Source: an uncultured Bacteroides sp. (GTDB lineage: Bacteria; Bacteroidota; Bacteroidia; Bacteroidales; Bacteroidaceae). From it: 64,000 nucleotides of DNA. Positions within the stretch are counted from its first letter, which is position 1. Each line of letters opens with the position of its first letter. Below are positions 553-22,123 of this stretch, one piece after another. Location of the stretch: positions 9,930-73,929 of the forward strand of contig CAAEFE010000112.1 in assembly GCA_900755095.1 (NCBI GenBank), written 5' to 3'. A program made the position numbers and the translations under genes. The notes under the pieces are model-generated. The model saw only the letters and a list, made by a program, of their open reading frames with translations. It was not told the origin of the DNA and ran no database searches.

Positions 553-1872
553 TTATCCTCCCATCTTGTCCTTCAACTTTCTCAACGGAGCCAGCAGTCT
601 TTCAATCAGCCTCATATCCTCCGTCACAATCTCAGCAACCCCTTTCATCTCACGGGTTAAGGGCAAATCCTTACCATAATTAGTCCGCATTCCATCCGGT
701 AGTTCTATATCAACCACATACATATTCTCGGCAGTAGGAACAGGAGAAACACTACAGACCCGCCCCTTAACATAGCCAAACTCCTGGTCAGGATAGTTAT
801 TCAAACGGATGTTAACCTCTTGCCCCGATTTCACTTTACCGGAGCCTTGAACCGGAAGCAATGCCTTCCCCATTGGTAAAGCTCCTTCATCGGGTGCAAT
901 CACAAAAACACTTTCACCGGAAGCCACATTCTGATTATTACTCCATACACTCATGAAAGTCAGTTTTCCTGATATGGGCGCCACTAACAAATAACTTTGC
1001 TCCCAAGTTGTGATACTTACCTGCAATTGCTCAACTGTATTTTTAAGATTCACGATATGTTTCTGTTCTTCTGTCAGTGCCTGGTGCTGGACGTCAAGCA
1101 AACTTTCCTTCCCCTGCTCTATTTGCATCTCAATTTGAGAAAGCGACATCCGCATTCCTTCGTAACCTTGCAATTGTTGCAGATAACTACGCTCCGACTC
1201 ATCATATTCCGCTGCAATCATCGCATTTTTCTTATACAGAGTAGAATCACGTCCATAAATACGTTTTATCAACATCTGCTCTTGTCCGCCCAACTGGAAT
1301 TGTTTCTCTGCCAGTTGGTAATACGTCTTCTGACTCTCCAAAAGTTTCCGACTGCTCTCCAGTTTCCTGCGGTAATAATCCTGTTTCACGAAACTCGCAT
1401 AATCTTTCAGAACAGAAATAAACGAAGCATAGGCAGGCTGCACTTCGCCTAGTTGCAAATATTGCCCGTCGAAAAGCTGTTCGGCCATACTCAGGACAAA
1501 CCCTTGAGCTTCCCATTGTTTCATGCGCTCTTTCAGTAAAAACAAATCTTCCGCTTTTGCTGAATTCTCTATCATTCCCAACACAGCCTCCTTCCTGACT
1601 ACCGCACCGTTCTCCACACACAACTCTTCCAATCTTCCGGCTACCCTAGCAACCACATAAGCTGGAGGATTCTGTGTACTAACCGTAATCTCCGCTTCCA
1701 CTACATCCGGATATTTAAACAGATAGCTCCCAATCAGTAGAATGATAACAATACAAAACAAGACAGTGATCCCCCAACGGAGAATCCACACAGGAACGTG
1801 GCTCATCACTTCCTGCACTTCTTCGCTCCGAAGTTCTATTTCTTTATATTCCTTTTTGTCTTCTTGTACCAT
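553..1872 (-). CDS. HlyD-family secretion adaptor (membrane fusion protein)
   Basis: This 439-residue protein has a cytoplasmic N-terminus, one membrane segment at about residues 32-53, a beta-barrel/lipoyl part (around 70-110), a long Gln/Glu-rich coiled-coil hairpin (about 125-290), and a C-terminal lipoyl and barrel part. This is the HlyD/bacteriocin-secretion adaptor layout. Such adaptors bridge an inner-membrane ABC exporter to an outer-membrane TolC channel. It is the last gene of the RiPP operon and starts 12 bases after the C39 ABC exporter stop, so the two should act as one exporter. No TolC-like gene is in the operon; the outer-membrane channel must come from elsewhere. The outer-membrane factor at 41617 belongs to a different, RND-linked operon. 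Known: the family role. Inferred: that its cargo is the peptide encoded at 9805. Confidence 0.9.
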   Translation of the reverse strand: MVQEDKKEYKEIELRSEEVQEVMSHVPVWILRWGITVLFCIVIILLIGSYLFKYPDVVEAEITVSTQNPPAYVVARVAGRLEELCVENGAVVRKEAVLGMIENSAKAEDLFLLKERMKQWEAQGFVLSMAEQLFDGQYLQLGEVQPAYASFISVLKDYASFVKQDYYRRKLESSRKLLESQKTYYQLAEKQFQLGGQEQMLIKRIYGRDSTLYKKNAMIAAEYDESERSYLQQLQGYEGMRMSLSQIEMQIEQGKESLLDVQHQALTEEQKHIVNLKNTVEQLQVSITTWEQSYLLVAPISGKLTFMSVWSNNQNVASGESVFVIAPDEGALPMGKALLPVQGSGKVKSGQEVNIRLNNYPDQEFGYVKGRVCSVSPVPTAENMYVVDIELPDGMRTNYGKDLPLTREMKGVAEIVTEDMRLIERLLAPLRKLKDKMGG

Positions 1873-1884
1873 AAATGCTCCTTC

Positions 1885-4089
1885 CTACTGCCCTAGTTCC
1901 AACTGGTTCTTCACTAATTCATAATACAGTCCTCGCTTCTCTGTCAATTCCTGGTGGGTACCTTCTTCCATGATGCGCCCTTTATCCAGCACTACAATCT
2001 TATCAGCATCTTTCACAGTACTCAAGCGATGGGCTACTACAACTACTGTTTTGCCTTTATAAAACTCATGTAAATGTTCCATAATCTCCTTCTCATTATT
2101 GGCATCCAAGGCATTCGTAGCCTCATCGAAAAAAAGAAATTCAGGATTCTTATAGACGGCACGGGCAATCAGGATGCGTTGCCGTTGCCCCTGACTGATA
2201 CCATTTCCCTCCATACCGATTTTGGTGTTATAGCCTAAAGGCAGCGAATCGATAAAGTCACGAATATTGGCTACCGTAACAGCATGCCGGAGTCTTTCAA
2301 TATCAATCTGCTCCTCACCAACGGCAATATTCTGAGCAATAGATTCGGAAAATATAAATCCGTCCTGCATCACCGACCCCGTACGGGAACGCCATAAATG
2401 AGGATTGATATTTTCAAGAGGAGTCTCTCCCAGTTTTATTTTTCCTTTGTTGGGAGTATAAAAACCTAATAACAGTTTTATCAGCGTAGTCTTTCCGCTA
2501 CCGCTCGCACCAACTATCGCAGTCACTTTCCTTTCCGAAATATGCAGATTCAAGTCTTCCAATACATAGTCCCTTTCCGCCCCGTCATAGCTGAAAGAGA
2601 GTCCTTCGATACAGATATCGCGTTCCTCCGGCAGCAATGTTAGTTTTGATTCGATATTCTGTTCCTCATCTTCCTTGCCATGCACTTCGTTCAATCGCTC
2701 CAGACTGATCTTGGCATCCTGAAGTTGTTGGACAAAACCGATGAAGGAACCGATAGGTCCCGATAACTGACCGATAATATAGGTAAGAGACATCATCATG
2801 CCCAAAGTCATTTCGCCGTCCACCACCGATTTGGCAGCAATAAAAGAGATGACGATGTTGGTAGTTTGGTTAAAGAAGATGGAACCCACCTGTTGGGTTT
2901 GTCCCAATGCAAGACCTTTCACGCTAATCTTGAAGAGTTTCACCTGAATTCGCTCCCATTGCCAACGTTTTTGCTTTTCGCAGTTGTTCAGTTTAATTTC
3001 CTGCATAGCGGTTACAAGCTGTATCAGGCTGCTCTGTTCACCCGCCGCCTGTGCAAAGCGACGGATATCCAGTTCCCGACGATATCTCATGAAGAGAAGT
3101 ATCCAGCAGACATAAAGAGAGTTGCCAACCAGAAAGATGGCAAGAATACCCAAGTTATAATAAGCCAGTACGAAAGCAAAGATAAAGAAGTTGACAAATG
3201 AGAACAATGTACTGATAGAAGAGCCGGTAAGGAAAGACTCAATACGTCCGTGGTCACCGATGCGCTGCATGATATCTCCTATCATTTTCGTATCGAAATA
3301 ATGCAAAGGTAGCTTCATCAGCTTGACCAGAAAGTCTGAAATGAGTGCGATATTGATACGGGCATTCATATGAAGCATAATCCAGCTACGAATAAATTCT
3401 ACGGAGAGCTGAGAAAGAGAGACGACCAGCTGAGCTATCAATATCAAAGTAATAAAAGACAGATTACCTCCATGAATGCCGACATCCACCAGAGACTGGG
3501 TAAGGAAAGGAAAGATGAGTTGCAGCACACTGATAGTCAGCATACCCAAAACTAATTGGATTAACTGCTTTTTATAGGGAGTCAGATACTTCAGGAAAAA
3601 AGAGAGGCTGCGCTCCCCCGCCCTTTTCTCATCATCCATTTCATAAAAGTCGGGAGTAGGATCTAATGTCAGGGCAGCCCCCTTTTCTTCCCCACCTACT
3701 TTCGTGGAAATCCAGCATTTCCTGAATTCTTTTTCCTTATAAGTTACCAACTGGCTAGCAGGGTCAGCAACACTAACCCAATAACCGTCTTTCTTTTTAC
3801 GAATGTCATAGCAAACGACAAAGTGATTTTGGTTCCAATGAAGAATACATGGTAAAGGGACATCTTCCACTAATTGCTTAAAAGTGATTCGCACACCGGA
3901 TGTACGGAAGCCTATGAATTCGGCAGCATCACTGATTCCAAGCATCGATACTCCTTCGCGAGTAATGAAGGAACGGGCACGAAGCGTTTGAAGCGAGTAA
4001 GTCTTGCCGTAGTACTTCGCTATCATACGGAGGCAGGATGGACCACAATCCATGGCGTCCAGTTGGATATAATGAGGAAAACGTTTCAT
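1885..4089 (-). CDS. Peptidase-containing ABC exporter (C39 peptidase, bacteriocin/RiPP type)
   Basis: This 734-residue protein has the three parts of a peptidase-containing ATP-binding cassette transporter. The N-terminal C39 peptidase has the catalytic Cys15 in MDCGPSC, His89 in NQNHFVV and Asp109 in VADP. A six-helix transmembrane domain follows (about 165-440). The nucleotide-binding domain has Walker A GASGSGKTT near residue 525, signature ISQGQRQR, Walker B FLFFDEAT and a switch His in VVAHRLS. Such exporters cut leader peptides after a double glycine and export the core through the inner membrane. The precursor at 9805-10065 has GG at residues 28-29, a fitting substrate. It lies 38 bases after the sulfotransferase stop, with a promoter-like sequence in the gap, and 12 bases before the HlyD gene. 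Base composition looks less AT-rich than the modification genes upstream. Confidence 0.93.
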   Translation of the reverse strand: MKRFPHYIQLDAMDCGPSCLRMIAKYYGKTYSLQTLRARSFITREGVSMLGISDAAEFIGFRTSGVRITFKQLVEDVPLPCILHWNQNHFVVCYDIRKKKDGYWVSVADPASQLVTYKEKEFRKCWISTKVGGEEKGAALTLDPTPDFYEMDDEKRAGERSLSFFLKYLTPYKKQLIQLVLGMLTISVLQLIFPFLTQSLVDVGIHGGNLSFITLILIAQLVVSLSQLSVEFIRSWIMLHMNARINIALISDFLVKLMKLPLHYFDTKMIGDIMQRIGDHGRIESFLTGSSISTLFSFVNFFIFAFVLAYYNLGILAIFLVGNSLYVCWILLFMRYRRELDIRRFAQAAGEQSSLIQLVTAMQEIKLNNCEKQKRWQWERIQVKLFKISVKGLALGQTQQVGSIFFNQTTNIVISFIAAKSVVDGEMTLGMMMSLTYIIGQLSGPIGSFIGFVQQLQDAKISLERLNEVHGKEDEEQNIESKLTLLPEERDICIEGLSFSYDGAERDYVLEDLNLHISERKVTAIVGASGSGKTTLIKLLLGFYTPNKGKIKLGETPLENINPHLWRSRTGSVMQDGFIFSESIAQNIAVGEEQIDIERLRHAVTVANIRDFIDSLPLGYNTKIGMEGNGISQGQRQRILIARAVYKNPEFLFFDEATNALDANNEKEIMEHLHEFYKGKTVVVVAHRLSTVKDADKIVVLDKGRIMEEGTHQELTEKRGLYYELVKNQLELGQ

Positions 4090-4115
4090 GTTTTTAGTGC
4101 GTTTTTCATTTGATC

Positions 4116-4123
4116 TAAATATA
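4116..4123 (-). promoter_or_regulatory. Possible internal promoter for the exporter genes
   Basis: The minus strand reads TATATTTA here, one base from the Bacteroides -7 consensus TAnnTTTG, and ends 27 bases from the ABC exporter start codon. The same sequence in nearly the same context (TTTTATATTTAG) occurs at 14386-14397, at the same distance from the first start codon of the operon. No clear -33 TTTG is visible, so this is tentative. Confidence 0.35.
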
Positions 4124-4126
4124 AAA

Positions 4127-4789
4127 TTAGTAGTTGGGACGAATCTGATAGTCTAACCTATAAAGGTCTTTAATCTCTTCAATATAATCAGTATTAATCA
4201 ATGCAAATTTTGCATGAGTAGAATTTCTAATATCTCCAACCTGAGGGATCTTATATACCTGCAGAAAGGTATCCAACTTTTCTATAGGAACGATATAGTC
4301 TACATCCTCGCAAGAATAATAATCCGACTGCCGACGAATGTGCTCATCTTGATAAAGAGGATCACTTTTCCCCAGTTCAAAACGCACAAATTCCATAAAC
4401 CGGTCGAAGGACGGTTCCCGACACAAATCCAAATACTCAAAATAACGCCGTTGCTGGTGGTGGTATTCCAAACAGAAATTCTTGTAGCAGGAAACTAATC
4501 TTTCAACAGGATCTCTCCAAACAGCAAACTTCATAATACCATTTCCCCACTCTCCATCAAGTTGTTTCACCGGATATAGATAACCATTCATGGAACTATA
4601 ACCGACCACTTCATGTATTTCTTCCTTATCAGAAACAACAGTACCTGTTTTAGCATAGATAGCCAGACTCTTAAGATAAGTCACTGCATTCTTTGCTATA
4701 GCGACAAAAGCCATATTATAATGAGCGATTTCACAAAAATAGTTTCCCATAAAAGGGGAAGAATAAAGAATTCGGGGTATTTCCATCAT
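4127..4789 (-). CDS. Sulfotransferase-like protein (Sulfotransfer_2 type)
   Basis: This 220-residue cytoplasmic protein shows the two PAPS-binding signatures of carbohydrate sulfotransferases. A 5'-phosphosulfate loop, VAIAKNAVTYLK, lies at residues 29-40, with the Lys where the family has PKxG/ACTS. A 3'-phosphate-binding segment, WRDPVERLVSCYK, lies at residues 91-103, with Arg92 and Ser100 at the expected positions. The family moves sulfate from PAPS to a sugar hydroxyl or, in some members, to tyrosine. It follows the second glycosyltransferase by 12 bases, and the natural inference is that it sulfates either the sugar on the RiPP or the single core tyrosine. The start could be either of two consecutive ATG codons (4789 or 4786). 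Sulfotransferases are rare in bacterial RiPP loci. The family call is likely; the acceptor is unknown. Confidence 0.7.
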   Translation of the reverse strand: MMEIPRILYSSPFMGNYFCEIAHYNMAFVAIAKNAVTYLKSLAIYAKTGTVVSDKEEIHEVVGYSSMNGYLYPVKQLDGEWGNGIMKFAVWRDPVERLVSCYKNFCLEYHHQQRRYFEYLDLCREPSFDRFMEFVRFELGKSDPLYQDEHIRRQSDYYSCEDVDYIVPIEKLDTFLQVYKIPQVGDIRNSTHAKFALINTDYIEEIKDLYRLDYQIRPNY

Positions 4790-4801
4790 ATATTTAATTT
4801 T

Positions 4802-6028
4802 TTAAAAAGCATCCAGCAAGCGTTTATATCCCTCTTTCATTTGGCATAAACCGTAATGTTTGAGATAAGCCTTCCGCGCATTTCGTCCAATCTCATTCAT
4901 TAGTGTTTCCGAAGATAAAAGCATAGTCAAAGCATGGACCAAATTCTCACTAAAAGTACCATTTTTCTTTGTTCTTTTCCCAATAGGGACTACTATAGCA
5001 TTGCCCTGATCTTTAAACATATCCCGTAAACCGAAACCATCAGATGTCACTATCGGAAGTCCATGCATCATCATTTCAATACCAACATAACTACACTGTT
5101 CTGTGTAAGAAGGAATGACTCCAATATCTGCCATTTGATACCACTTCTTCAACTCCTTACGTTCCAAATGCCCGGTATATGTTACTTTAGTAGAAATATG
5201 AGCATAATTAGACAAGACAAATTCGGGTAGTAAAGAACCTGCAAGTACTAAACGAATATTAGAAAACTCTTTTAGTAATATGCAAAAAGCATCCAACACA
5301 GCATATATCCCTTTAAATTCAGAAAGTCTTCCTGCAAAAAGAATCACTTTCTCTTTGTCATCTATATAGTATTGTTCTCGAAGTTTATTCTTATCCATTT
5401 TTGAGTTTATGTATTGATTTCTTTTCAGTCCATTAGGTATTAAGAATATCTTTTCCTGATCAATCCTATAGATATTAGTAAGTACTTGATGTGTTCCTTT
5501 TGTCAGACAAACTACTGCATCTACTGTCTGGCACATCTGTAGCTCCTTATCAACAGTATTTAAAATCCATTTATATGTTTTATTCTTCAACGATCTACTT
5601 CTATTCTTTACAATATTTGCCAACAAACAGTCATCCCCAAGTAAAGGTGAAGTCCACCAAAGATTATGAATAACATACAATTGCTTGGACAAAGGATGAG
5701 AGTTGCGTAGACTCTCCAGCAATTCAGGACAAGGAGAATGATTAAAGCAAAACACATTCTCCAAAGAATCAGGAACGAACAGACGAAAAACTCTGTTCAC
5801 CACTTTCCAGTTATCAAAGAAATTACCAGAAGGAAAACGAGGTATCGATATTATCTTCATTCCATTTTTAGAACATACCCTAATCTCCGGTTGCCTGACA
5901 TTAAAGATTACATGGCAAATATCCACATCCATTTTCTTTAGACACTGTAGAAGCTCAGTGATAAATACCCCTATCCCATTTTTAGTAGAAGTGATGTATT
6001 CATCTAAAACATATATCTGCTTATTCAT
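4802..6028 (-). CDS. Family-4 glycosyltransferase, GG-Bacteroidales peptide system type
   Basis: From the start MNKQIYVLDEY the protein has 408 residues and two Rossmann halves of the GT-B fold. The N-terminal half begins with a Gly-rich acceptor loop (KNGIGVFITELL). The C-terminal half has the GT4 donor-site features LFAGRLSEFKG and EQCSYVGIEMMMHGLPIV. The sequence is plainly paralogous to the protein at 10110, and both resemble the glycosyltransferase family that accompanies GG-Bacteroidales precursors (recognised from memory). I chose the ATG at 6028, four residues inside the longest frame, because it gives an ATGA overlap with the stop of the pseudo-radical-SAM gene, as at three other junctions in this operon. 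It probably transfers a sugar from a nucleotide donor to the peptide or to a first sugar. Linkage and donor cannot be read from the sequence. Confidence 0.85.
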   Translation of the reverse strand: MNKQIYVLDEYITSTKNGIGVFITELLQCLKKMDVDICHVIFNVRQPEIRVCSKNGMKIISIPRFPSGNFFDNWKVVNRVFRLFVPDSLENVFCFNHSPCPELLESLRNSHPLSKQLYVIHNLWWTSPLLGDDCLLANIVKNRSRSLKNKTYKWILNTVDKELQMCQTVDAVVCLTKGTHQVLTNIYRIDQEKIFLIPNGLKRNQYINSKMDKNKLREQYYIDDKEKVILFAGRLSEFKGIYAVLDAFCILLKEFSNIRLVLAGSLLPEFVLSNYAHISTKVTYTGHLERKELKKWYQMADIGVIPSYTEQCSYVGIEMMMHGLPIVTSDGFGLRDMFKDQGNAIVVPIGKRTKKNGTFSENLVHALTMLLSSETLMNEIGRNARKAYLKHYGLCQMKEGYKRLLDAF

Positions 6029-7248
6029 TTCAGATGGCATAAATTGAATTTTCCAATCACAAACCCATAATTAGAAGGCGGCGGACACAAATAACGGTGC
6101 AGGCACTTTGCACATTCGGGAGTAACGTCCCGTGTTAATCTCCAAGCCGAGCGATTCTTCATCTCTTTGATTATCAAATCATATATAGTATCTTTTATGG
6201 TACCGACAGGAGGATTATTAATATTAGAATAAACACTACCATCAGGGAATACCGACAATCTGCCCCAATAATTTGAATTCATCACCTGATGCGCAAAAAT
6301 ATCTTTTTTATCATAACTACATACAGTAATATCTTCTTTACAAGTATATATGTATTGCTCAAAGAAATCCAAATTATCTCCGGTAAAGGCAGGACACGGA
6401 ATAATTTCCACATTAACGTTGTTTTGCTTCATTTCTTCCATCTCCTCTATATCAGACTCTCCGAGTATGATATAGATCCATGAAAACGATATAGAAGAAT
6501 CTGCCAGCATCCGGTTTATTTCATCAAATGAGTTTTGCCCGGCATAGTAAAGTTTTAATTCATATTTGTCTTTATCAAACTCCGAAGAGTTCAACAAGTC
6601 CCCGATACCCTTAGCATTATCTCCCAGCATATACAGGCAAACTTTCGCAGTTAAACCTCCTAATAAGCACATCAGTTGTTTTTTATAAGGATATTGCAGT
6701 ATATCTCCTATTACATTGACCTGCAAGAGATAAGTATTGTTTGCCGTAGCCAAAAAAGTTTCCAATGTCTGAATATCCAAGAAGTGTTCATCGGCTATCG
6801 GATAGAGAAACTGCCGGCAGTAATCGGGGTGTTCACTCTGCCCACCCAGGAAGAGGGATAATTCGTTCCAGTTATAAGCTACATATTCCCCCACTTCTCT
6901 TCCTTTCTCCTTTTCAATCCGGTCTACATCCGATTGCAGGTTGAGTAATGGAGGAAAACTGATGGGGCGTGATTCGGTATCCGAATATTCAATCAGACAC
7001 CCCATTTTATTTTCTACTGTATCCAGCATCCATGATCGCAGATCAGTATCTTCCCAGTCTTCCGGTGATACATCTATAGTGTACAAGTTTCTTAATTCAT
7101 TCAACATCAAGCAGTATTTCTTTATCAAACCGTGTATGTCGAAACTCAAGTAAGTGTGTTCTTTTGCATTATACATAACTCCTTCCGTTTCATTTATCCA
7201 CAGAAACGTATCAGGATATAAGGTGTAATAATAAGTCGGTTTCATCAT
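6025..7248 (-). CDS. Pseudo-radical-SAM protein, GG-Bacteroidales system
   Basis: This 407-residue protein has the size and C-terminal layout of a peptide-maturing radical SAM enzyme but lacks any CxxxCxxC motif in its N-terminal half, so it cannot bind the SAM-reducing iron-sulfur cluster. The end keeps a SPASM-like set of cysteines (PECAKCLHRYLC, then C near the C-terminus), so an auxiliary cluster may remain. This is the known pseudo-rSAM partner that sits beside the active enzyme in GG-Bacteroidales loci. It overlaps the active enzyme's stop codon (ATGA), implying translational coupling and perhaps a heterodimer. Two consecutive ATG codons (7248, 7245) are possible starts. The family assignment is fairly firm from layout and position; its role, perhaps peptide binding or scaffolding, is inferred. 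Confidence 0.8.
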   Translation of the reverse strand: MMKPTYYYTLYPDTFLWINETEGVMYNAKEHTYLSFDIHGLIKKYCLMLNELRNLYTIDVSPEDWEDTDLRSWMLDTVENKMGCLIEYSDTESRPISFPPLLNLQSDVDRIEKEKGREVGEYVAYNWNELSLFLGGQSEHPDYCRQFLYPIADEHFLDIQTLETFLATANNTYLLQVNVIGDILQYPYKKQLMCLLGGLTAKVCLYMLGDNAKGIGDLLNSSEFDKDKYELKLYYAGQNSFDEINRMLADSSISFSWIYIILGESDIEEMEEMKQNNVNVEIIPCPAFTGDNLDFFEQYIYTCKEDITVCSYDKKDIFAHQVMNSNYWGRLSVFPDGSVYSNINNPPVGTIKDTIYDLIIKEMKNRSAWRLTRDVTPECAKCLHRYLCPPPSNYGFVIGKFNLCHLK

Positions 7249-8525
7249 ATCTGTACCATTAGTTCTTTTGATATTCTTGCATATATTTCGGGCTGTTGTT
7301 GGAGCATATTCAGATAATAGCCCAAATAATCCAACGCTTCTTTCCTGTTTTTAAAACCGGGGCATCTAGGAGAAGACGACAAATTCTCCATATAGAACAA
7401 ACACTGTTTGCAAAACGGCTTCATATAGCAAGCCTTGCACAAGTGTTTGGTCTTATTGTAGTATGCAGAGTATTGTTTGGCTATCGCATCCAAATCCAGA
7501 TCGACTTTTTCAGATGTGACATGCCCCAATATATACTTCTGATCAATTCTTTCGCATGGCAGTATATCTCCATTTACTGTGAGAAATATCTTTTTTTGAA
7601 ATGGCAGACACGTTCCTGTAGGAAATATTATACTTGCATTTTTTTTCAACAACGAGTTATATTGATAATAAACATTATCAGTCAATCTGTCTATCAGTCT
7701 AAGAAGATCCATCACATCAGAAGAAGCATACAGGAAATCACTATCAGCACATGAAAATTCCGTAGTTTGAGCGGATCGAAACATTTTCCTAAATTCCTCC
7801 TTTTTAGCTTCACTTATTCCAAAATTATTTAGTTCAGCCAATCGAGGACGTTTATTAAAATGCTCAATAATGAACTTTAGAACTTCAACATCATTATTTT
7901 TATCATGAATTACAGAATTAAAACTCACATGTTCTGCAAAATATTCAGGATAAGTTGATTGCAACAATTTCATATTATGAAACACCCGTTGAAAGGAATT
8001 AGCTCCCCGATGGTCCACACGATATCCCTGAGCATATTCGTCACCATCCAGGCTAAGCAACAACATCACTTCCTTTTCTGCCAAGAAAGACATATATCTA
8101 TCCAACAACATTCCATTAGTTGTCATTGCATATCCGTATTTCACTCCGGGTATTGTCGGCAATGACTCCAGGTAAGCAACAATCTGTTCAATAAGGCTCA
8201 TATTCATGAGTGGTTCTCCACCATAGAATCCGAATACAATCTTATGAGGAGAGGAAGCTGCCTGATGATTAGTCCATATATCATAAAGATAATCGATTAG
8301 CCTTTTAGCAACATCAAACTGAAGAAACTTATCCTCTCTTTTTCCATGCGTTTCATAGAAATCTCCATAACCGCAATATTTACATTTAAGATTGCAGGCA
8401 TCTGTCACTTCAAAGGTTAATTGCTTTAAATTTATCAAAGAATTCAATACATTATGCCCGGACAAATTGTAGACATAAGTAACATCTTTCTGCTGAAGTT
8501 GCTCTAATAAATCACTATTCCTCAT
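7245..8525 (-). CDS. Radical SAM/SPASM peptide maturase, GG-Bacteroidales family
   Basis: This 426-residue cytoplasmic enzyme has the radical SAM motif C44xxxC48xxC51 (ACNLKCKYC), the GGEP motif (FYGGEPL) for SAM binding, and a SPASM-type C-terminal region with cysteines in GTCLPF, LPCERI and HLCKACYMKPFCKQC, expected to bind auxiliary iron-sulfur clusters. Such enzymes abstract a hydrogen from a peptide residue to form thioether, carbon-carbon or epimerised products. No separate RRE (PqqD-like) gene is seen. It could be built in at residues 1-35, which precede the cluster motif. Its start overlaps the end of the beta-propeller gene by 11 bases and its stop overlaps the next start (ATGA). The target is most likely the peptide encoded at 9805-10065. 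The exact bond formed is not predictable. Confidence 0.92.
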   Translation of the reverse strand: MRNSDLLEQLQQKDVTYVYNLSGHNVLNSLINLKQLTFEVTDACNLKCKYCGYGDFYETHGKREDKFLQFDVAKRLIDYLYDIWTNHQAASSPHKIVFGFYGGEPLMNMSLIEQIVAYLESLPTIPGVKYGYAMTTNGMLLDRYMSFLAEKEVMLLLSLDGDEYAQGYRVDHRGANSFQRVFHNMKLLQSTYPEYFAEHVSFNSVIHDKNNDVEVLKFIIEHFNKRPRLAELNNFGISEAKKEEFRKMFRSAQTTEFSCADSDFLYASSDVMDLLRLIDRLTDNVYYQYNSLLKKNASIIFPTGTCLPFQKKIFLTVNGDILPCERIDQKYILGHVTSEKVDLDLDAIAKQYSAYYNKTKHLCKACYMKPFCKQCLFYMENLSSSPRCPGFKNRKEALDYLGYYLNMLQQQPEIYARISKELMVQI

Positions 8526-9720
8526 ACTTTTTCAATTTTAGTTTTACAATAACAGGATTGCTTTCTTCTGTCAAGTCCGAGAATGGAGGTTTGCAGCCTT
8601 CTTCAAAGAACTCATAAGCATTCATTAAAGCGTAAAGGTATCCATCTTTCACCCATCCACTTCCACCTAAAACGCCAGAGGGATTCCAGTATTTAAAGCA
8701 TTCATCAACATCATTAACAAAGCCATTTGGAGAGAACGTCAAGGCCTTATCATTATTCTTACAGAAACCCGAGCCGGAGTCATCCAATCTTCCTGCTACA
8801 TGATACAAAACACCATTTCCCAACGGATATACCATAGACAACAATCTACGTCCAAAATCATATTCAGGGATGTCCAGTACCATGCGATGAACACAAAAAT
8901 CATAATCTGCAAATGATTTATCTTTCTTGATGATATAGCAAGGACGCACATCCTTAAAGTCAGAAGTACAATAAATTGTATCCACAGATTGGTGTTTCCA
9001 CCAAAACAGATTGTCATTAAAACCATAACTGAAAGGATAGCCTTGATCCTTTACTATTCCATTCTGAACTACAGCTTTTATATCATAATGATAATTCTGT
9101 TGACGATAAACAATAGAATCCGTTTGCAAATCTTTTGCAAATATAAAATTGGGACCATCGTAATTGATGGTATCGCCTCTCAAAGGGCGAGACCAAGGCA
9201 GATAATAATATACTTCATTCCCATTTACATAAGAAATAATTGTTTTATTCCAACCAATACTATCTGCTTTTGAAACGTCACCTATATGCTCACCTTCCAA
9301 TGAATACAGACGAAATGTTAATCCCATATTATTATTGACAGCCACCATCTTGTTTTCTAAATCATAGGCAGCCCTCGTCGCTACTTTATTAGCTTCCCCC
9401 GGTCCTTGTCCTTGCTTAAATAATGACATCAAGAATTTACCATCAAGAGTATATTTATAAACAAATTTCTGATCAATATAAATGGCATCATCAATTACCG
9501 CTATACCTGTAAAAAGTAGATCAGGAATCAATGGCGTATCATCTAAACGTATATAAGATATACTTTCTACAAACTCCGATAGCTTCGACGGTTCTTCGGA
9601 ATATTTCACATCACTCAAATCTATAATCGTAATATCCTGTTCATTCCCTATTCGACCTTTATTTGCAGAAGTACATGCAAATAGAAAGGCACAAAGAAAC
9701 ATAATAATTAATTGTTTCAT
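8515..9720 (-). CDS. Six-bladed beta-propeller lipoprotein in the RiPP operon
   Basis: This 401-residue protein starts with a lipoprotein signal peptide (lipobox LFAC, Cys16). The rest is regular beta-strand sequence with the features of the Bacteroidetes six-bladed beta-propeller family (for example FVYKYTLDGKFLMSLFKQGQGPGEA and RLYSLEGEHIG repeats). It should sit in the periplasm or on the outer membrane. It starts 84 bases downstream of the precursor gene, after a strong hairpin, and overlaps the radical SAM gene by 11 bases, so it is a true member of the operon. These propellers often act as binding or sensing modules. Possible roles are immunity, product binding or docking to an outer-membrane receptor. 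None of these is shown by the sequence. The fold call is confident; the function is unknown. Confidence 0.8.
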   Translation of the reverse strand: MKQLIIMFLCAFLFACTSANKGRIGNEQDITIIDLSDVKYSEEPSKLSEFVESISYIRLDDTPLIPDLLFTGIAVIDDAIYIDQKFVYKYTLDGKFLMSLFKQGQGPGEANKVATRAAYDLENKMVAVNNNMGLTFRLYSLEGEHIGDVSKADSIGWNKTIISYVNGNEVYYYLPWSRPLRGDTINYDGPNFIFAKDLQTDSIVYRQQNYHYDIKAVVQNGIVKDQGYPFSYGFNDNLFWWKHQSVDTIYCTSDFKDVRPCYIIKKDKSFADYDFCVHRMVLDIPEYDFGRRLLSMVYPLGNGVLYHVAGRLDDSGSGFCKNNDKALTFSPNGFVNDVDECFKYWNPSGVLGGSGWVKDGYLYALMNAYEFFEEGCKPPFSDLTEESNPVIVKLKLKKYEE

Positions 9721-9740
9721 AATAATAGCTTTAATTTTAC

Positions 9741-9782
9741 AATTAAAAGAGAGTAGTTATACATGAGAGTATAACCACTCTC
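9741..9782 (-). terminator. Hairpin with U-tract after the precursor gene (partial terminator)
   Basis: On the minus-strand RNA, 9782-9770 and 9761-9749 pair over 13 consecutive positions (one G-U wobble), with an 8-base loop, followed by UUUUAAUU. It lies between the precursor stop (9805) and the beta-propeller start (9720). This is the usual place for a leaky terminator or 3' stabiliser that raises the amount of precursor mRNA relative to the enzyme genes. Confidence 0.75.
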
Positions 9783-9804
9783 AATGTCTAGTCAAGCCAT
9801 TTCA

Positions 9805-10065
9805 CTATTTTGAAACAGTTTGCATAGCACTACCTTCACCACCTTGGCAAACACAAACAGGATCATTTGAACCGGTAATGGTATAACCATTCTCCTTGTT
9901 TGCAGCCTCATTCTCTGCTGTTGATGGTGATCCACCTGATGGAGTGGCACAAGAGCCACATTTACACCAACCTGGGTCGCCTCCTCTAAAGAGAAGACCC
10001 TGCTGCTTTTTGCTCAACTCAGCTCTATCGAGCTGATGAAGGCTAATTTTTGAAATTTTCTTCAT
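9805..10065 (-). CDS. RiPP precursor peptide, GG-Bacteroidales family
   Basis: This 86-residue peptide has a basic/amphipathic leader (MKKISKISLHQLDRAELSKK) that ends with Gly28-Gly29 after LLFR, the double-glycine site expected by the C39 exporter. The 57-residue core starts at Asp30. It has Cys34, Cys36 and Cys39 in WCKCGSC, a Gly/Ser/Ala/Asn-rich middle, one Tyr at 61, and Cys71 and Cys73 in CVCQGG. The leader and core style match the GG-Bacteroidales natural product precursors known from genome mining. An upstream in-frame ATG at 10104 would add 13 hydrophobic residues that overlap the preceding gene; the MKKISK start at 10065 is chosen because it matches the leader pattern. The gene lies between a glycosyltransferase and the beta-propeller gene and is followed by a hairpin. 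Ser/Thr in the core could carry sugar, and Tyr61 or the sugar could carry sulfate. Product structure and activity are unknown. Confidence 0.88.
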   Translation of the reverse strand: MKKISKISLHQLDRAELSKKQQGLLFRGGDPGWCKCGSCATPSGGSPSTAENEAANKENGYTITGSNDPVCVCQGGEGSAMQTVSK

Positions 10066-10098
10066 CTTGCAAAAAATTAAATTAAACAATATAATAAA

Positions 10099-10112
10099 TA
10101 ACACGCGTGTTA
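10099..10112. promoter_or_regulatory. Perfect 14-bp palindrome before the precursor gene
   Basis: TAACACGCGTGTTA reads the same on both strands. It covers the stop codon of the upstream glycosyltransferase and lies 34 bases before the precursor start. An AT-rich promoter-like stretch (TATATTG, minus strand, 10093-10087) follows at a distance suitable for initiation just before the precursor. It could be an operator for a dimeric regulator or part of an internal promoter. No regulator gene is present in the operon. Confidence 0.4.
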
Positions 10113-11318
10113 CATTCCCAAATAAAAAGAGAGGAGTTGAAGTTTTACATTCTCTATATTATACTTCCATGATTGATCTCTTATTCTTTTATGCCGGTTT
10201 AATGATAAAACAGTCAATAAATTTTCAGTTAAAGCATTCATTATCAAATCTTTTTTACCTTCAATATATTCTACCGAAATATAGCATTCATCTTCGAGCA
10301 TTTCTTTAAGTCCTGTCGTATCAGTACCAACCAAAGGAATGCCATAAGCCATCATTTCAATTGCCACATAGCTACATTGTTCATGGAAAGAAGCCATAAC
10401 TCCGACATCAGAAATTTGATAAAAGACTGATAAAAGCTCCTTATCTACTTTCCCGGCAAACGTTATCTTCCCAAAACAATCCCGACATAAAGGCAAATAT
10501 TTATCATAATTCCCATCTCCCACCAGTAACAAATGGGCATCAGGCAATTTTTCCCGAATTCCTTTGAAAGCTTGAATGATTAAACTGACTCCTTTTATCT
10601 CATCCAATCTCCCGACAAAAAGTATTACTTTTTCATCCTTTCCAAATGCCATCTTACGCTTTTCATTCTCACATTCCTGCTCGTTCAGCAGCGTATCAGG
10701 CAGACGAATACCATTAACCATAGACACTATTTTAGAATCAGGAATCTTATATTCATTATTTAGTAGCTTATAAGTGTATTGTGAGAGACAAATCACTTTA
10801 TCTACGCCATTAAGAAAAGATTTATCCTGCAGAAAATCCATATAAATCATTTGTTCAAAATCATTTCTTTCATCTTTTTCGCCATATATAATCTCACGAA
10901 ATAACAAGGTGTTACCTTTCAAAAGGAGACACCAATTAAAATAATGTATCGTCAGAATAATAGATGCCTCTGGGAATCGAGATTTAATACACCTAGCCAA
11001 AGAAGCATGATGTAAATAATTGAAATGAAAAATACAACCAATCTTTTCATCAACAAACAAGGACAATAAATAAGCTACATTACGATTATATCTATCAGTA
11101 TAAGTATTGTAGAGGAAGCTGCTTATTTGAGGAAATTTCAAATACCTTATATTATCTTGTTTCACTAGTGTAACTTCTTTTTCATCAGAATCCAGTTCTA
11201 CCACCGTGAGATACAAAGATGCAGTTTGGTAAAGGCACGTTATAAGTTGGTTTATATAAGTACCTATACCATAGCTGGCAGCTCTATTTCTTGTATTGAT
11301 TAAGTAAATTTGCTTCAT
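10110..11318 (-). CDS. Family-4 glycosyltransferase, GG-Bacteroidales peptide system type
   Basis: From MKQIYLINTRNRAASYGIG the protein has 402 residues with a GT-B fold. The N-terminal acceptor loop is YGIGTYINQL. The C-terminal donor half has LFVGRLDEIKGVSL, LLLVGDG and HEQCSYVAIEMMAYGIPLVG. It is a paralog of the protein at 4802 and resembles the glycosyltransferase family known to accompany GG-Bacteroidales precursors. The chosen ATG at 11318 overlaps the stop of the LanC-like gene (ATGA); the ten extra residues upstream in frame look non-coding. It is directly upstream of the precursor gene (45 bases from this stop to the precursor ATG), which supports a role in glycosylating that peptide. 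The first sugar may be added by one of the two paralogs and the next by the other, but order and sugar cannot be deduced. Confidence 0.87.
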   Translation of the reverse strand: MKQIYLINTRNRAASYGIGTYINQLITCLYQTASLYLTVVELDSDEKEVTLVKQDNIRYLKFPQISSFLYNTYTDRYNRNVAYLLSLFVDEKIGCIFHFNYLHHASLARCIKSRFPEASIILTIHYFNWCLLLKGNTLLFREIIYGEKDERNDFEQMIYMDFLQDKSFLNGVDKVICLSQYTYKLLNNEYKIPDSKIVSMVNGIRLPDTLLNEQECENEKRKMAFGKDEKVILFVGRLDEIKGVSLIIQAFKGIREKLPDAHLLLVGDGNYDKYLPLCRDCFGKITFAGKVDKELLSVFYQISDVGVMASFHEQCSYVAIEMMAYGIPLVGTDTTGLKEMLEDECYISVEYIEGKKDLIMNALTENLLTVLSLNRHKRIRDQSWKYNIENVKLQLLSFYLGM

Positions 11319-11968
11319 AGCAATAATAATTTCAATCCATTTCTCCATGATAATTCTTCCTGTTTGCCATCGACCTGCTTGTTTACAATCCGTTTTATTA
11401 TATCAATATATGGATAATCAACCCGTTTCCCATTATACAAACCAAGCAACATGGCAACCCCAACAGTAGAATTATGATCGCTTATTTCCATTCTGGAGCA
11501 AGCATACATCAATTCATCAATAAAACTCTTATCAAAAGCGGTTTCCTCATTCTTTCCAATAAGGCGTAATGAAACATAGCAAGCTAAACCGGCCAAACCT
11601 GTTTCAAAAGAGTAATCGGTGATACGTCTCAGATCCTTCTCCATAATCTTCTGATCGATATCAAAAAGAACTTCATTAGAATCACCTGATATAAATTTAT
11701 TTGCCAACAAATATTCTATACCCCAAGCAATGCCGCACAGTCCGGATTCAAACCCCCAAATCATCTCCGTATGCATATCATCAAAGATTTCATCCAATAT
11801 TTCACCTCCAAAATCTTCAAATAAGGTATTTTCTGTATACCGTGCATAGTGAAAGAAAAAAAGTACGAGTCCCATTCGACCATATACAATACTTGAGTCT
11901 GTATTAAAACTGCCAAACATTAATTGATGATTGGCTATCCGACTTAACAATAAATCTTTATCTTCCAT
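11315..11968 (-). CDS. Short LanC-like protein without zinc ligands (second copy)
   Basis: This 217-residue protein has three Gly-rich helical-barrel segments typical of LanC-like proteins: GRMGLVLFFFHYAR, FESGLCGIAWGIEYLL and FETGLAGLACYVSLRL. Full LanC cyclases have about 400 residues, seven such repeats and three zinc ligands (Cys, and Cys-His in CHG). This protein has about half of the repeats and no CHG motif, so zinc-dependent cyclisation is not expected. It is a paralog of the protein at 13614 (shared LCGI-WGIEYL and the MED start). The start MEDKDLLL at 11968 is preferred over an ATG seven residues upstream, because it matches the paralog's start and falls just after the stop of the preceding gene. 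It may bind the peptide or a modifying enzyme. That is inference. Confidence 0.7.
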   Translation of the reverse strand: MEDKDLLLSRIANHQLMFGSFNTDSSIVYGRMGLVLFFFHYARYTENTLFEDFGGEILDEIFDDMHTEMIWGFESGLCGIAWGIEYLLANKFISGDSNEVLFDIDQKIMEKDLRRITDYSFETGLAGLACYVSLRLIGKNEETAFDKSFIDELMYACSRMEISDHNSTVGVAMLLGLYNGKRVDYPYIDIIKRIVNKQVDGKQEELSWRNGLKLLLL

Positions 11969-11970
11969 AT

Positions 11971-12750
11971 TTATTTCCGATTTCTCCAAGATGCTACATC
12001 ATCTGTTAGCTCCTTAGTATCCATGTTACAAATTCTGATTAACTCCAAACGACTGTTGGAAGCAAGCTGCCTATTAAAAAAGCGAGAGTTATCTCCTCTT
12101 GGATGCCACAAATGATATAAAGGGCCTTCGGTATTCACACCTACAGGATAACCCAATATTTCCATTCGCCGGACCCGTTCGGCATCCTCAGGTCCCCAAC
12201 CATAAAAATGTTCGTTCTCTCCGCCACATTTCAAGTAGACCTCCCTATTCACAAAGAAAAGTCCGCCACAGGAAGGGCGCCCAAGCCACCGCCTATAAGA
12301 AGCTGAGTGTAGCTGCAAATGTTCTAAGATAGAGTCAGCTCTCAAGCTTGCAACAGTCTGTTCTTCTGACAAAAACAGGACAGTTTGATCATAGGGAATC
12401 ACCATTGCCGCCTTCCCATTCATAATCATATCCAATGATTCGTCTATCTGCTTATAAGGAAGTATCATTTCGGCATCCCATACAGCAACAACAGGAGTTG
12501 TGCATCTTTTCAATAGCCTATTTAAATAATGTGTACGATAAAAGACAGGGTCTTCGTCATACACAAAACAGAAATCAACATTCTCAAAGTCTTTCCATGT
12601 CGTATAAAGATTCTCCCTGTCTGCTTCCAAAACAAGCACCCGGATACCTGTAGGCTGTAGATAACGGAGCACAGCGTCCATATTGCGCTGACGTTCGGAG
12701 CTATCGACCCGAAGCGTGGTTATTATTGTTATTTGTTCTGTGTTTTCCAT
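11971..12750 (-). CDS. GT-A glycosyltransferase (family-2-like, galactosyltransferase C-terminal motif)
   Basis: This 259-residue cytoplasmic protein has a GT-A-like N-terminal half with the acidic metal-site motif VWDAEM near residue 92, and a C-terminal segment GGENEHFYGWGPEDAERVRRM. That segment is characteristic of the Glyco_transf_7C/galactosyltransferase-associated domain seen in chondroitin-synthase-like and beta-1,4-galactosyltransferase-like enzymes. A His near the end (HLWHPRG) fits metal coordination. It is encoded between the FkbM-like methyltransferase (39 bases upstream) and the second LanC-like gene (2 bases downstream of its stop). This makes a third glycosyltransferase in the operon with a fold different from the two GT-B enzymes. 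It probably extends the glycan or adds a hexose or hexosamine to the peptide. The acceptor is unproven. Confidence 0.8.
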   Translation of the reverse strand: MENTEQITIITTLRVDSSERQRNMDAVLRYLQPTGIRVLVLEADRENLYTTWKDFENVDFCFVYDEDPVFYRTHYLNRLLKRCTTPVVAVWDAEMILPYKQIDESLDMIMNGKAAMVIPYDQTVLFLSEEQTVASLRADSILEHLQLHSASYRRWLGRPSCGGLFFVNREVYLKCGGENEHFYGWGPEDAERVRRMEILGYPVGVNTEGPLYHLWHPRGDNSRFFNRQLASNSRLELIRICNMDTKELTDDVASWRNRK

Positions 12751-12789
12751 GAGATAGATACCTTTTTATTAATACAATTTCTATAACAC

Positions 12790-13626
12790 TCAAAATGCAG
12801 CATGCCAGTCGCACCAGAAGGTCCATTCCGGTTCATCCAGTTGCATCTTATCTCTTCTATGTTTTTTAAGTATTTCCCTAGCTAGTTTATAGCCGTACCA
12901 TCTGCCGGCTAGTTCTTCACCGAATGGTCCTGAAGCATTTGGAAAGAAATCCGTAAATTTCATTCCTCGTTGGTTTGAAGTGAGTTCTAATTGTTCTTTT
13001 GCGTATCTACAATCTATTGCTGTTTGCGCAGTCCAATGATGTTCAGGAATATTAAAATAGAAGTCGCGTTTACTTAATACGGTAAGGGTTTGTTGGTCTA
13101 CCAACTTAAATCTTCTATATCCTAATTGATACAAGCGTTCCAGAGTCTCCAGTTCCTTGCCCATCGCAATGGTTTCATTCTCTCCCAGGCATTCTGTCTC
13201 CACTGATATATATGGAGGCTTTTCATCACTATTTTCTATTGTTTGCAATGCAATAATATCATTTCCTTCTATATCTATTTTGCAATAAAAAGGCATTCCA
13301 TATTCTCTGAATAGGTCATCCAGCCGTTTTGACCGAACCTTTTTCTTTAGTGTTTTATTTCCCTGCCTGGAAGCGACCGCACCATTGGTCGAGTTCCAAA
13401 GAGTATTTTGACTAATAAAGAAATTTATATCTTTATCACTCTCATTCGTTATCGCATAATTAAGCAGGATAAGCCTGCCGTTATCAATATACTCTTTAAA
13501 AGAGCTTTTACCTTCTTCTATCAGTTCAATATCTGCATCTACAGCCACTACGTTATAACCTTTCAACAGATAAAAAAGAGTATCTTCGCCTTTATGAAAT
13601 CCAATGTCATAGATTAACTCTTCCAT
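12790..13626 (-). CDS. FkbM-type SAM-dependent methyltransferase
   Basis: This 278-residue protein begins with the class I methyltransferase motif IYDIGFHKGEDTLFYLLKGYNVVAVDAD (residues 5-33), which binds SAM, and has the FkbM-type catalytic-region motif CKIDIEGND followed by SVETE. FkbM-family enzymes methylate hydroxyl groups, often on sugars or polyketides. The last 80 residues (from about FYFNIPEHHW) are an extension with many Trp and Tyr that I do not recognise. The gene overlaps the end of the upstream LanC-like gene by 13 bases, so it is co-transcribed and probably coupled. O-methylation of a sugar attached to the peptide is the simplest role. A direct change to the peptide is also possible. 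Confidence 0.8.
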   Translation of the reverse strand: MEELIYDIGFHKGEDTLFYLLKGYNVVAVDADIELIEEGKSSFKEYIDNGRLILLNYAITNESDKDINFFISQNTLWNSTNGAVASRQGNKTLKKKVRSKRLDDLFREYGMPFYCKIDIEGNDIIALQTIENSDEKPPYISVETECLGENETIAMGKELETLERLYQLGYRRFKLVDQQTLTVLSKRDFYFNIPEHHWTAQTAIDCRYAKEQLELTSNQRGMKFTDFFPNASGPFGEELAGRWYGYKLAREILKKHRRDKMQLDEPEWTFWCDWHAAF

Positions 13627-14228
13627 GTTATTTTGTTTATCATCTTGTCCACTTTCGTCTTATAGAATCCTGTCACACGCAGTTCGAGTAGCCAGTCGAG
13701 AAGGTCATTTACATCATTTCCCGGTCCATCCAGTTTTCGGTCCATCCAGTCGATCAAGTAAATCAAATTTTCTTTTAGTTCGATGCTAGAATAGGTATCG
13801 CCCCTTTGCCAGCTTGGACGCAGGCGCATCAGTATATAGCGTCCCAAGCCTAAAATGCCATTATCTAACCCCAGTTCACTGATTGGTTCGTAATTAATTG
13901 CATATAGAACACACTGGTCTACTTCGACAAGAATCTCATCGGCATCCCCTTCCAGAAAACCGGATTGGATCAGATATTCTATTCCCCAGCCGATGCCACA
14001 CAGTCCATCCGCAAAAGTGAGAGGTATTTCTAAAGAAAGTTCTTCTAAAAGCTTATCCAACAAGTCGCCGGCAATTTCTTCATAGTACACATCACCAGAA
14101 CAACGAGCACAGTGAAAAAAGAAAATCACAGCACGCATCTTACCGTGCGCCAATCCCAATGATGAATAAAAGTCATTATTCAAAATGTTGGTAACTGAAT
14201 ATCTATGCAATAGTTCCTGATCTTCCAT
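13614..14228 (-). CDS. Short LanC-like protein without zinc ligands (first copy)
   Basis: This 204-residue protein has LanC-type Gly-rich segments: GLAHGKMRAVIFFFHCAR, FADGLCGIGWGIEYLIQ and GLDNGILGLGRYILMRL. It is about half the length of a true LanC cyclase and has no CHG or other clear zinc-site motif. It is a paralog of the protein at 11315. The gene starts 23 bases after a 35-codon ORF and overlaps the methyltransferase gene at its end. No lanthipeptide dehydratase (LanB, LanM, LanKC) is present in the operon, so classic lanthionine formation is unlikely. A role as a peptide-binding scaffold is more likely. The fold call rests on motif pattern only. Confidence 0.68.
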   Translation of the reverse strand: MEDQELLHRYSVTNILNNDFYSSLGLAHGKMRAVIFFFHCARCSGDVYYEEIAGDLLDKLLEELSLEIPLTFADGLCGIGWGIEYLIQSGFLEGDADEILVEVDQCVLYAINYEPISELGLDNGILGLGRYILMRLRPSWQRGDTYSSIELKENLIYLIDWMDRKLDGPGNDVNDLLDWLLELRVTGFYKTKVDKMINKITWKS

Positions 14229-14251
14229 ATTCTTATTTTGTTTGTATGTAT

Positions 14252-14359
14252 TCAGACTTCTTTATTGGGAGAGCAATAGGATAAAACGCAAACAGAATAT
14301 GGATTGCAGATAATGACATCCAAAGATGTTACTTGTCTTATGTCTTGTGCTTCTTTCAT
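14252..14359 (-). CDS. Small Cys-containing peptide ORF at the head of the RiPP operon
   Basis: This ORF encodes 35 residues: a start MKEAQDIRQVTSLDVI, then a Cys-rich end with three cysteines (residues 18, 24 and 29) in CNPYSVCVLSYC, then SPNKEV. It lies 23 bases before the first LanC-like gene. It also lies 27 bases downstream of a promoter-like TATATTTA, so it would be the first gene of the transcript. The N-terminal half looks like a short leader and the C-terminal half like a small core with Ser, Tyr and Cys. There is no double glycine, so it would not be cut by the C39 peptidase in the usual way. It may be a second precursor, a regulatory leader peptide, or a chance ORF. I do not recognise the family. 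Confidence 0.4.
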   Translation of the reverse strand: MKEAQDIRQVTSLDVIICNPYSVCVLSYCSPNKEV

Positions 14360-14386
14360 AATGTTTGTGTATTAGTTTTAATACGC

Positions 14387-14394
14387 TAAATATA
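14387..14394 (-). promoter_or_regulatory. Likely promoter of the RiPP operon
   Basis: The minus strand reads TATATTTA, one base from the Bacteroides -7 box TAnnTTTG, and a start about 7 bases later gives a short leader of about 20 bases before the first ORF. The 14229-14642 gap is otherwise AT-rich and holds only the small ORF and the cysS promoter. No clear -33 element is seen. Confidence 0.45.
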
Positions 14395-19109: not shown

Positions 19110-19139
19110 GATCATTAATTGTTTAAAGGCAGTTCTTAC

Positions 19140-19222
19140 CACACCCGGGTGTCAGGATGCACGACACCCGGGTGTCAGCATGTATGAGATCCGGGTGTCG
19201 GTATGTATGAGACCCGGGTGTC
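19140..19222. repeat. Four tandem 23-bp units, each with a 14-bp palindrome
   Basis: The unit core GACACCCGGGTGTC, a perfect palindrome, occurs at 19140-19153 (first base differs), 19163-19176 (exact), 19186-19199 (two differences) and 19209-19222 (one difference). The spacing is exactly 23 bp, with similar 9-bp spacers (agcatgtat type). The array fills most of the gap between the sulfatase stop and the PL8 start. On RNA each unit can form a small hairpin. Confidence 0.9.
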
Positions 19223-19247
19223 ATACAAACCGTATTAGTATACGGTA

Positions 19248-20801: not shown

Positions 20802-20880
20802 GATATAAAGAATAACAGTTAATGTACCGGAAGAGACTAATATATGCACATATCCGGCTAAAGTACAAGCAAGGCAGTTC

Positions 20881-22083: not shown

Positions 22084-22123
22084 AATACATGGATTATTTG
22101 TTAAGTTAATAATTATCTGGTGG

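Follow-up and report, generated by a model that had tools for sequence, protein, structure and literature searches.

A Bacteroides operon with the predicted product of a radical SAM peptide bearing a sulfated, possibly methylated glycan

Why would an operon for a small exported peptide encode glycosyltransferases, a sulfotransferase and a methyltransferase next to its radical S-adenosylmethionine (SAM) enzymes? The question is raised by a 64,000-nucleotide stretch of DNA, here called the window, from an uncultured Bacteroides sp. (GenBank assembly GCA_900755095.1, contig CAAEFE010000112.1), in which a GG-Bacteroidales-type precursor peptide shares a minus-strand operon with all of these and with two short LanC-like proteins. 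The best reading of the predicted proteins is that the product is a radical SAM peptide carrying a sulfated, possibly methylated glycan. More broadly, the operon probably makes one exported, heavily tailored ribosomally synthesized and post-translationally modified peptide (RiPP) that would be cross-linked by radical SAM chemistry, glycosylated, sulfated and methylated, with the LanC-like proteins acting as partners of the glycosyltransferases. Coordinates below are positions within the window, and labels beginning with L or G denote comparison loci.

The open reading frames (ORFs), strand and tight packing described in the original prediction are confirmed: thirteen minus-strand genes form one operon from 553 to 14228, with intergenic gaps of -16 to +84 bases. 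Profile searches with Pfam (all 13 genes) and NCBIfam (10 of the 13) bear out the families it had assigned to the radical SAM pair, the glycosyltransferases, the sulfotransferase, and the FkbM, C39 and HlyD proteins. The families it proposed for the precursor, the propeller and the LanC-like proteins hold as relationships, with profile scores under the cut-offs or, for LanC-like 2, no Pfam match. In order of transcription, the features are as follows.

14252..14359, minus strand: 35-residue ORF ahead of the operon, unlikely to be a gene
13614..14228, minus strand: short LanC-like protein 2, 204 aa; aligns with LanC-like 1 and relatives, 52% to L182
12790..13626, minus strand: FkbM-family methyltransferase; fkbM_fam (TIGR01444) 5.5e-13, 49.6 bits, over the cut-off of 37.7; Methyltransf_21 3.3e-6
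11971..12750, minus strand: GT-A glycosyltransferase of beta-1,4-galactosyltransferase type; Glyco_transf_7C 5.7e-7, beta4GalT7 5.4e-4
11315..11968, minus strand: short LanC-like protein 1, 217 aa; LANC_like 22.5 bits, just under the cut-off of 23.2; model matches LanC/LanM folds; lacks the zinc-site half
10110..11318, minus strand: GT-B glycosyltransferase 1; TIGR04157 442 bits, over the cut-off of 400; Glycos_transf_1; ATG at 11318 overlaps LanC-like 1 by 4 bases
9805..10065, minus strand: precursor peptide, 86 aa, GG leader; TIGR04149 19.5 bits, E 6.6e-4, under the cut-off of 25; 21 homologues
9749..9782, minus strand: 14-bp hairpin after the precursor gene, likely a stabiliser or partial terminator; z -6.4
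8515..9720, minus strand: six-bladed beta-propeller lipoprotein; DUF5128 2.6e-4, 20.7 bits, just under the cut-off of 22.9; lipobox LFAC
7245..8525, minus strand: radical SAM/SPASM peptide maturase; TIGR04148 481 bits, over the cut-off of 300; CNLKCKYC; Pfam Radical_SAM and weak SPASM
6025..7248, minus strand: pseudo-radical-SAM partner; TIGR04150 284 bits, over the cut-off of 250
4802..6040 (start possibly 6028), minus strand: GT-B glycosyltransferase 2, GT4-like; Glycos_transf_1 4.5e-26; TIGR04157 360 bits, under the cut-off of 400
4127..4789, minus strand: 3'-phosphoadenosine 5'-phosphosulfate (PAPS)-type sulfotransferase; Sulfotransfer_2 (PF03567) 5.7e-10, 40.2 bits, cut-off 22
1885..4089, minus strand: C39 peptidase-ABC exporter; Peptidase_C39 2.2e-30, ABC_tran 1e-28; DCGPSC and H motifs; 86% to L105
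553..1872, minus strand: HlyD-type membrane fusion protein; HlyD_3 7.3e-11; 59% to the L105 copy

The association first proposed between precursor, radical SAM pair and glycosyltransferase stands, the core being the GG-Bacteroidales cassette of NCBIfam: the radical SAM protein, its pseudo-radical-SAM partner and GT-B 1 exceed their cut-offs, and the precursor and GT-B 2 fall below theirs yet are clearly related. A homologue of the precursor (P0095) is named as TIGR04149 family by NCBI, and among 399 family-level genomes at least 13 have TIGR04148 at E 1e-70, 12 of them over the cut-off, a lower bound with at most four candidates scored per genome. The precursor leader ends in LLFRGG, followed in the core by C-x-C-x-x-C, STxxNxxAN and a second C-x-C. 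All 21 database homologues, some of whose rows appear frameshifted or cut, keep CxCGSC, and most also keep NGYT and the second CxC, the tyrosine within ENGYTITG being near-invariant. Among 25 precursors chosen by eye and blast from related loci, C-x-C is universal and S/T-x(1,3)-N-x-x-A-N is common to 15, two of them from one cluster; the latter stretch is a candidate for the residues that accept sugars or cross-links.

The widest intergenic gap of the operon follows the precursor gene and contains the hairpin, which none of 200 shuffled sequences equaled in stability. In folding tests that took in post-precursor gaps only, this stretch folds at z <= -3 in 7 of 12 related loci, with sequences that differ by eye, and at -2.75 to -0.38 in the other five, a pattern that fits a device holding precursor mRNA high.

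In the alignment of the sulfotransferase, K33 and R92-D93-P94-R97 are invariant and N34 and T37 nearly so, positions that we take to bind PAPS. Its best fold row is heparan sulfate 2-O-sulfotransferase; its profile found no match at 1e-3 among the sequences of the Protein Data Bank (PDB). Relatives occur in 5 of 158 Bacteroides genomes. Four of these (G510, G414, G415 and G418), all close relatives, encode it within a related cluster of one or two precursors, radical SAM and pseudo-radical-SAM genes, a cytidylyltransferase, GT2, LanC-like genes, GT-A and GT-B, joined in three of the four by a GT10 fucosyltransferase (Pfam being run on the G414 copies only). The fifth copy is on a contig of 7.2 kb, which also encodes a GT2 protein and a propeller lipoprotein, no radical SAM gene being in view. 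Finding this gene alone, apart from a precursor, had been named beforehand as evidence against a shared product, and that is not the pattern seen in four of the five genomes. An order-wide search (E 1e-8) returned 0 of 393, which shows rarity weakly, as the sample held no positive control.

Both the genome context and the best fold row point to a sugar as the putative sulfate acceptor. Alternatively, the enzyme could sulfate a tyrosine of the peptide, as RaxST does in the raxX-raxSTAB system, with the glycans made separately. The operon shares with that system a C39 exporter and a HlyD-type adaptor, the sulfotransferase gene being directly upstream of the C39-HlyD pair here and one gene away from it in L104-L107, and the near-invariant core tyrosine (NGYTITG) would offer an acceptor, a rax-type acceptor being a Tyr in an acidic stretch. 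However, the GY stretch is also present in precursors of L001, L109 and L010, clusters where no sulfotransferase match was seen, the gene keeps company with GT2 and cytidylyltransferase genes in the four larger clusters, and a heparan sulfate enzyme gives the best fold row; we therefore consider tyrosine sulfation unlikely, if deserving of attention, and prefer sulfation of a glycan.

For the FkbM protein, whose profile had no PDB match at 0.1, a relative at E 1e-15 was found in 1 of the 158 genomes (L164, 65% identical). There its neighbors in one run are a LanC-like gene (blast 2e-8, no Pfam match), one GT2 and two GT4 genes. Close by, two long peptides of 181 and 222 aa appear by eye to carry a GG-type leader, and the opposite strand encodes a C39 protein (44%); the 20 kb locus yielded no radical SAM gene of the window type. 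FkbM thus recurs in a setting of LanC-like, glycosyltransferase and C39 genes and not with the window's precursor type, the peptides in L164 being of a different precursor type. A large protein set held 523 FkbM homologues, the best among the matches listed being 88-100% identical; an order-wide search (E 1e-20) gave 0 of 393, again without a positive control in the sample and hence a weak indication of rarity.

Two sister clusters, L109 and L001, indicate what the operon has in addition to a common core. Their radical SAM proteins are 52% and 51% and their precursors 58% and 54% identical to those of the window, and both keep the order LanC-like, GT-B, precursor, propeller and radical SAM, followed by the pseudo-radical-SAM gene in L109. 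No blast match to the sulfotransferase, GT-A or FkbM was obtained in L109, L001 or L117. In L001 the C39 gene, located upstream, is shortened, and beyond it (L117) lie another LanC-like gene and another GT-B gene. Relative to this core, the window has LanC-like 2, FkbM and GT-A upstream, and GT-B 2 and the sulfotransferase between the pseudo-radical-SAM and C39 genes. The contig of L109, the closest sister cluster, ends after a 129-residue ORF (12792-13181) with a C39 piece and, by tblastn, a HlyD piece; its exporter looks broken or cut.

The lack of sulfotransferase and FkbM matches in the sister clusters, and G+C content that forms a patchwork from 0.34 to 0.44 within the operon (parts at 0.34-0.38, versus 0.46-0.49 in the flanks and remaining window), would suit another explanation, in which FkbM, the sulfotransferase and GT-B 2 modify a different glycan, such as a capsule, and came to share the operon through chance insertion. 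Set against it are the sulfotransferase relatives within such clusters in four of five genomes, the nearest Bacteroides FkbM again standing beside LanC-like, glycosyltransferase and C39 genes, and the overlaps and short gaps all along the operon, which together make it rather improbable that these enzymes serve another glycan.

The operon as a whole is cargo inserted between a HAD hydrolase gene (2-508, truncated where the window begins) and cysS (14643-16124). Among 30 relatives, out of 49 of the 158 genomes with a strong HAD match, the two genes adjoin in 23, where cysS, read in the same direction, starts no more than about 0.85 kb downstream of HAD; in L242, the closest relative (90% HAD identity), the spacing is about 0.12 kb. 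Of the other seven, L260 has cysS at another place and direction, and six (L251, L262, L264, L266, L268 and L271) have no cysS within 1.5 kb. In these six the gap between HAD and cysS may hold other cargo.

A third possibility is that this is an ordinary GG-Bacteroidales cluster with nothing new. Every core family is named in NCBIfam, and tables in PMC10352776 count 263 Bacteroidales areas with radical SAM and LanC and 41 with radical SAM, LanC and GlyS; the class is accordingly not new, its core being a known cassette and clusters of radical SAM, LanC-like and glycosyltransferase genes being in print (PMC10352776). Yet the literature searched, with most subscription papers and all bioRxiv preprints outside its scope, yielded no description of radical-SAM-modified, glycosylated and sulfated peptide clusters, of a sulfotransferase or FkbM gene in such clusters, or of LanC-like-glycosyltransferase fusions, and we think it improbable that the locus is ordinary in every respect. 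The earlier suggestion of a heavily decorated, exported RiPP of uncharacterised type thus survives in that sugar, sulfate and methyl enzymes are present and no such product was found described there, and is narrowed in that the combination of radical SAM, LanC-like and glycosyltransferase genes had already been published.

What the LanC-like proteins do is the remaining part of the question. LanC-like 2 is 29% identical to LanC-like 1 and alignable with its relatives, and the alignment of both with a true LanC (L193:13680-14888, PF05147 1.8e-44) covers its first half and stops before WCYG and CHG, so that the half bearing the zinc ligands (Cys, Cys-His) is absent from both. The predicted model of LanC-like 1 (pLDDT 76.7) matches LanC-family folds and has the alpha/alpha barrel of the LanC superfamily. 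A lanthionine-type role is not supported because the catalytic half of LanC is absent.

A search with LanC-like 2 found 101 places in 41 of the 158 genomes, all placed in context by script. A glycosyltransferase lies in the same ORF or at most two same-strand genes away at 87 of them, against 8 among 110 control ORFs at distances above 6 kb; the set of glycosyltransferases was defined by clustering neighbors and by eye, which favors the test, and the close relatives G414, G415, G418 and G510 were counted separately, so that the numbers overstate independence. For the 96 neighboring ORFs counted as glycosyltransferases, Pfam reported 24 families, nearly all of them for glycosyltransferases; the models with most members are GT2-type (up to 53), GT4-type (27), Glyco_transf_7C (20) and Gly_transf_sug (11). 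Six of the 14 remaining places gain a glycosyltransferase by Pfam (as a fusion in L167, L176, L189, L213 and L210, as a neighbor in L195), bringing the count to 93, and one of the last eight turns out to be the true LanC, with Lant_dehydr_N and Lant_dehydr_C genes as its neighbors.

In eight cases Pfam places LANC_like and a glycosyltransferase in one ORF: with GT2 (L165, L168, L177 and L210), GT6 and GT11 (L167), GT4 (L219 and L175) or GT8 (L213), the LANC_like score being over the cut-off in L210, L219 and L175 and under it in the other five. L193:8293-10329 is a GT2-LanC-like-GT7C triple (glycosyltransferases by Pfam, LanC by the genome search), and L010, L013, L005 and L009 have GT-B ORFs of 538-552 aa with a LanC-like 2 match in the C-terminal part. 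A window-like precursor was found near only 16 of the 101 places (within 9.5 kb, blast), C39 near 46, radical SAM near 37 and pseudo-radical-SAM near 34; at least one of the four is near 68, and none is in view at 33. The original prediction had tied the LanC-like genes to the precursor, and their frequent occurrence apart from one of the window type speaks against enzymes specific to this peptide. On this pattern of neighborhoods and fusions, they are best read as putative glycosyltransferase partners, not lanthionine cyclases.

That they are working thioether cyclases yielding a glycosylated lanthipeptide is extremely improbable: their kinship with LanC in sequence and fold, a weak match of LanC-like 1 to LanM (E 0.0035, model positions 593-719 of 932, the C-terminal part) and the Cys, Ser and Thr of the precursor core would agree with it, but this reading was rejected because the zinc-site half, which in the true LanC of L193 holds WCYG and CHG, and a dehydratase are both missing (apart from that weak LanM match, nothing of the LanB, LanM or LanKC kind in Pfam, 13 of 13 genes, or NCBIfam, 10 of 13), whereas the true LanC adjoins Lant_dehydr_N and Lant_dehydr_C, and other Bacteroidales LanC-like proteins described in PMC10352776 likewise lack zinc motifs. 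L193:10632-16911 is itself a class I lanthipeptide-type locus in Bacteroides, with Lant_dehydr_N, Lant_dehydr_C, a full-length LanC, an S41/PDZ peptidase and a 77-residue Cys-rich peptide with a GG leader; according to PMC10352776, its 1,136 Bacteroidales genomes contain no LanB.

Taken as glycosyltransferase partners, the two LanC-like half-barrels would hold the precursor for the glycosyltransferases encoded next to them, LanC-like 1 perhaps with GT-B 1 or GT-A and LanC-like 2 with GT-A. The radical SAM protein, with its pseudo-radical-SAM partner, would form thioether cross-links from the C-x-C-x-x-C cysteines, and the sugar chain may begin on the conserved S/T-x(1,3)-N-x-x-A-N stretch, its hydroxyls then being sulfated by the sulfotransferase and methylated by FkbM. 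The C39 protein would cut the leader after GG and export the product with HlyD and a TolC-type protein encoded elsewhere, and the hairpin would allow more precursor than enzyme to be made. A role in competition or signalling in the gut seems likely. More tentatively, Bacteroidales may possess an extensive modular system whose truncated LanC proteins have turned into substrate adaptors and bring many kinds of glycosyltransferase (GT2, GT4, GT6/GT11, GT7-like and GT8) onto RiPP precursors, the window version carrying a sulfated and methylated oligosaccharide that possibly resembles host sulfated glycans.

Several related loci have further features. Clusters with LanC-like, glycosyltransferase and radical SAM genes at L176:14151-16579 and L181:9173-11600 include LicD and a fusion of nucleotidyltransferase and aminotransferase (identified by Pfam in the L176 copies), which suggests phosphonate- or choline-type decoration. 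LanC-like/glycosyltransferase loci also contain a UDP-galactopyranose mutase (L013:8846-9976 and L230:16325-17446) or an NAD-dependent sugar epimerase/dehydratase (L009:1695-2678). A VKOR-thioredoxin-C39-like fusion protein lies near a LanC-like gene at L234:6891-8432; ORFs at L177:8988-10556 and L015:4638-6194, outside the domain scan, are similar in appearance. At L163:2228-5300, where there are two precursors, the position of the propeller lipoprotein after each is taken by a lipoprotein-like ORF that by eye resembles an aspartic protease; Pfam gives a weak PDZ match for one and nothing for the other.

Within the window itself, chondroitin-type glycan utilisation genes lie next to the operon (16248-30305 and 44618-53838), comprising a PL8 lyase, two sulfatases, GH88, a SusC/SusD-like pair, a second SusC-like gene and a hybrid two-component sensor. 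A functional link to that locus is not supported, because the operon sits between HAD and cysS, outside it. A resistance-nodulation-division (RND) efflux pair (HlyD_D23 and AcrB-type) occupies 37210-41617. Scans of the window for tRNAs and with Rfam (gathering threshold) returned nothing. For a Bacteroides-type promoter, only one-mismatch sites were found, including one at 14622 upstream of the operon, and these are not enriched (21 on the window's minus strand). The last 166 bases of the range originally described (553-14394) contain only the 35-residue ORF, the fourteenth of the proteins then counted; it has no tblastn match at E 1e-3 in the related loci examined, and it was rejected as a second precursor because it lacks both a GG leader and a match. 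The other thirteen genes are supported.

If correct, these readings predict a product type in a common gut genus, a radical-SAM-modified, glycosylated and sulfated exported peptide, and give the puzzling LanC-like proteins of Bacteroidales a testable role, not as lanthionine cyclases but as partners of glycosyltransferases. Sugar genes that vary among related clusters (fucosyltransferase, GT6/GT11, UDP-galactopyranose mutase, cytidylyltransferase, LicD and sulfotransferase) suggest exchange of peptide-borne glycans among gut strains. New here are the contexts of the sulfotransferase and FkbM, together with the idea of LanC-like proteins as glycosyltransferase partners.

Among known systems, glycocins are glycosylated RiPPs exported by a C39 transporter, as proposed for the window product, and differ in their S/O-glycosyltransferase and disulfides and in having, as far as is known, neither radical SAM enzyme nor LanC-like partner. 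The raxX-raxSTAB system has, to our knowledge, no radical SAM enzyme, no glycosyltransferases and no LanC-like protein. Like the window, this system of Xanthomonas pairs a sulfotransferase with a small peptide, which is sulfated (PMC6637879). The sactipeptide-like cluster of B. uniformis ATCC 8492, too, has TIGR04149, TIGR04148 and TIGR04150 members with an ABC exporter and a HlyD-type protein; it is presented as five genes, and the passage on it does not mention glycan enzymes (PMC4573289). The passages of PMC4573289 and PMC8939145 that mention TIGR04149 precursors name no such extra enzymes. BGC3-5 of PMC10352776 have radical SAM, pseudo-radical-SAM and LanC-like proteins whose sequences lack zinc motifs, glycosyltransferases in BGC3 and C39/membrane fusion proteins in BGC4; that paper finds carbohydrate-active enzymes near LanC genes and suggests that LanC is more endoglucanase-like, and in contrast to the window its passages on these clusters describe no sulfotransferase and no FkbM; nor do they describe LanC-like fusions with glycosyltransferases. 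Measured against the NCBIfam GG-Bacteroidales cassette (TIGR04148, TIGR04149, TIGR04150 and TIGR04157), all four families are matched in the window, the precursor and GT-B 2 under the cut-offs, and to these the operon adds a sulfotransferase, FkbM, GT-A, a second GT-B and two LanC half-proteins.

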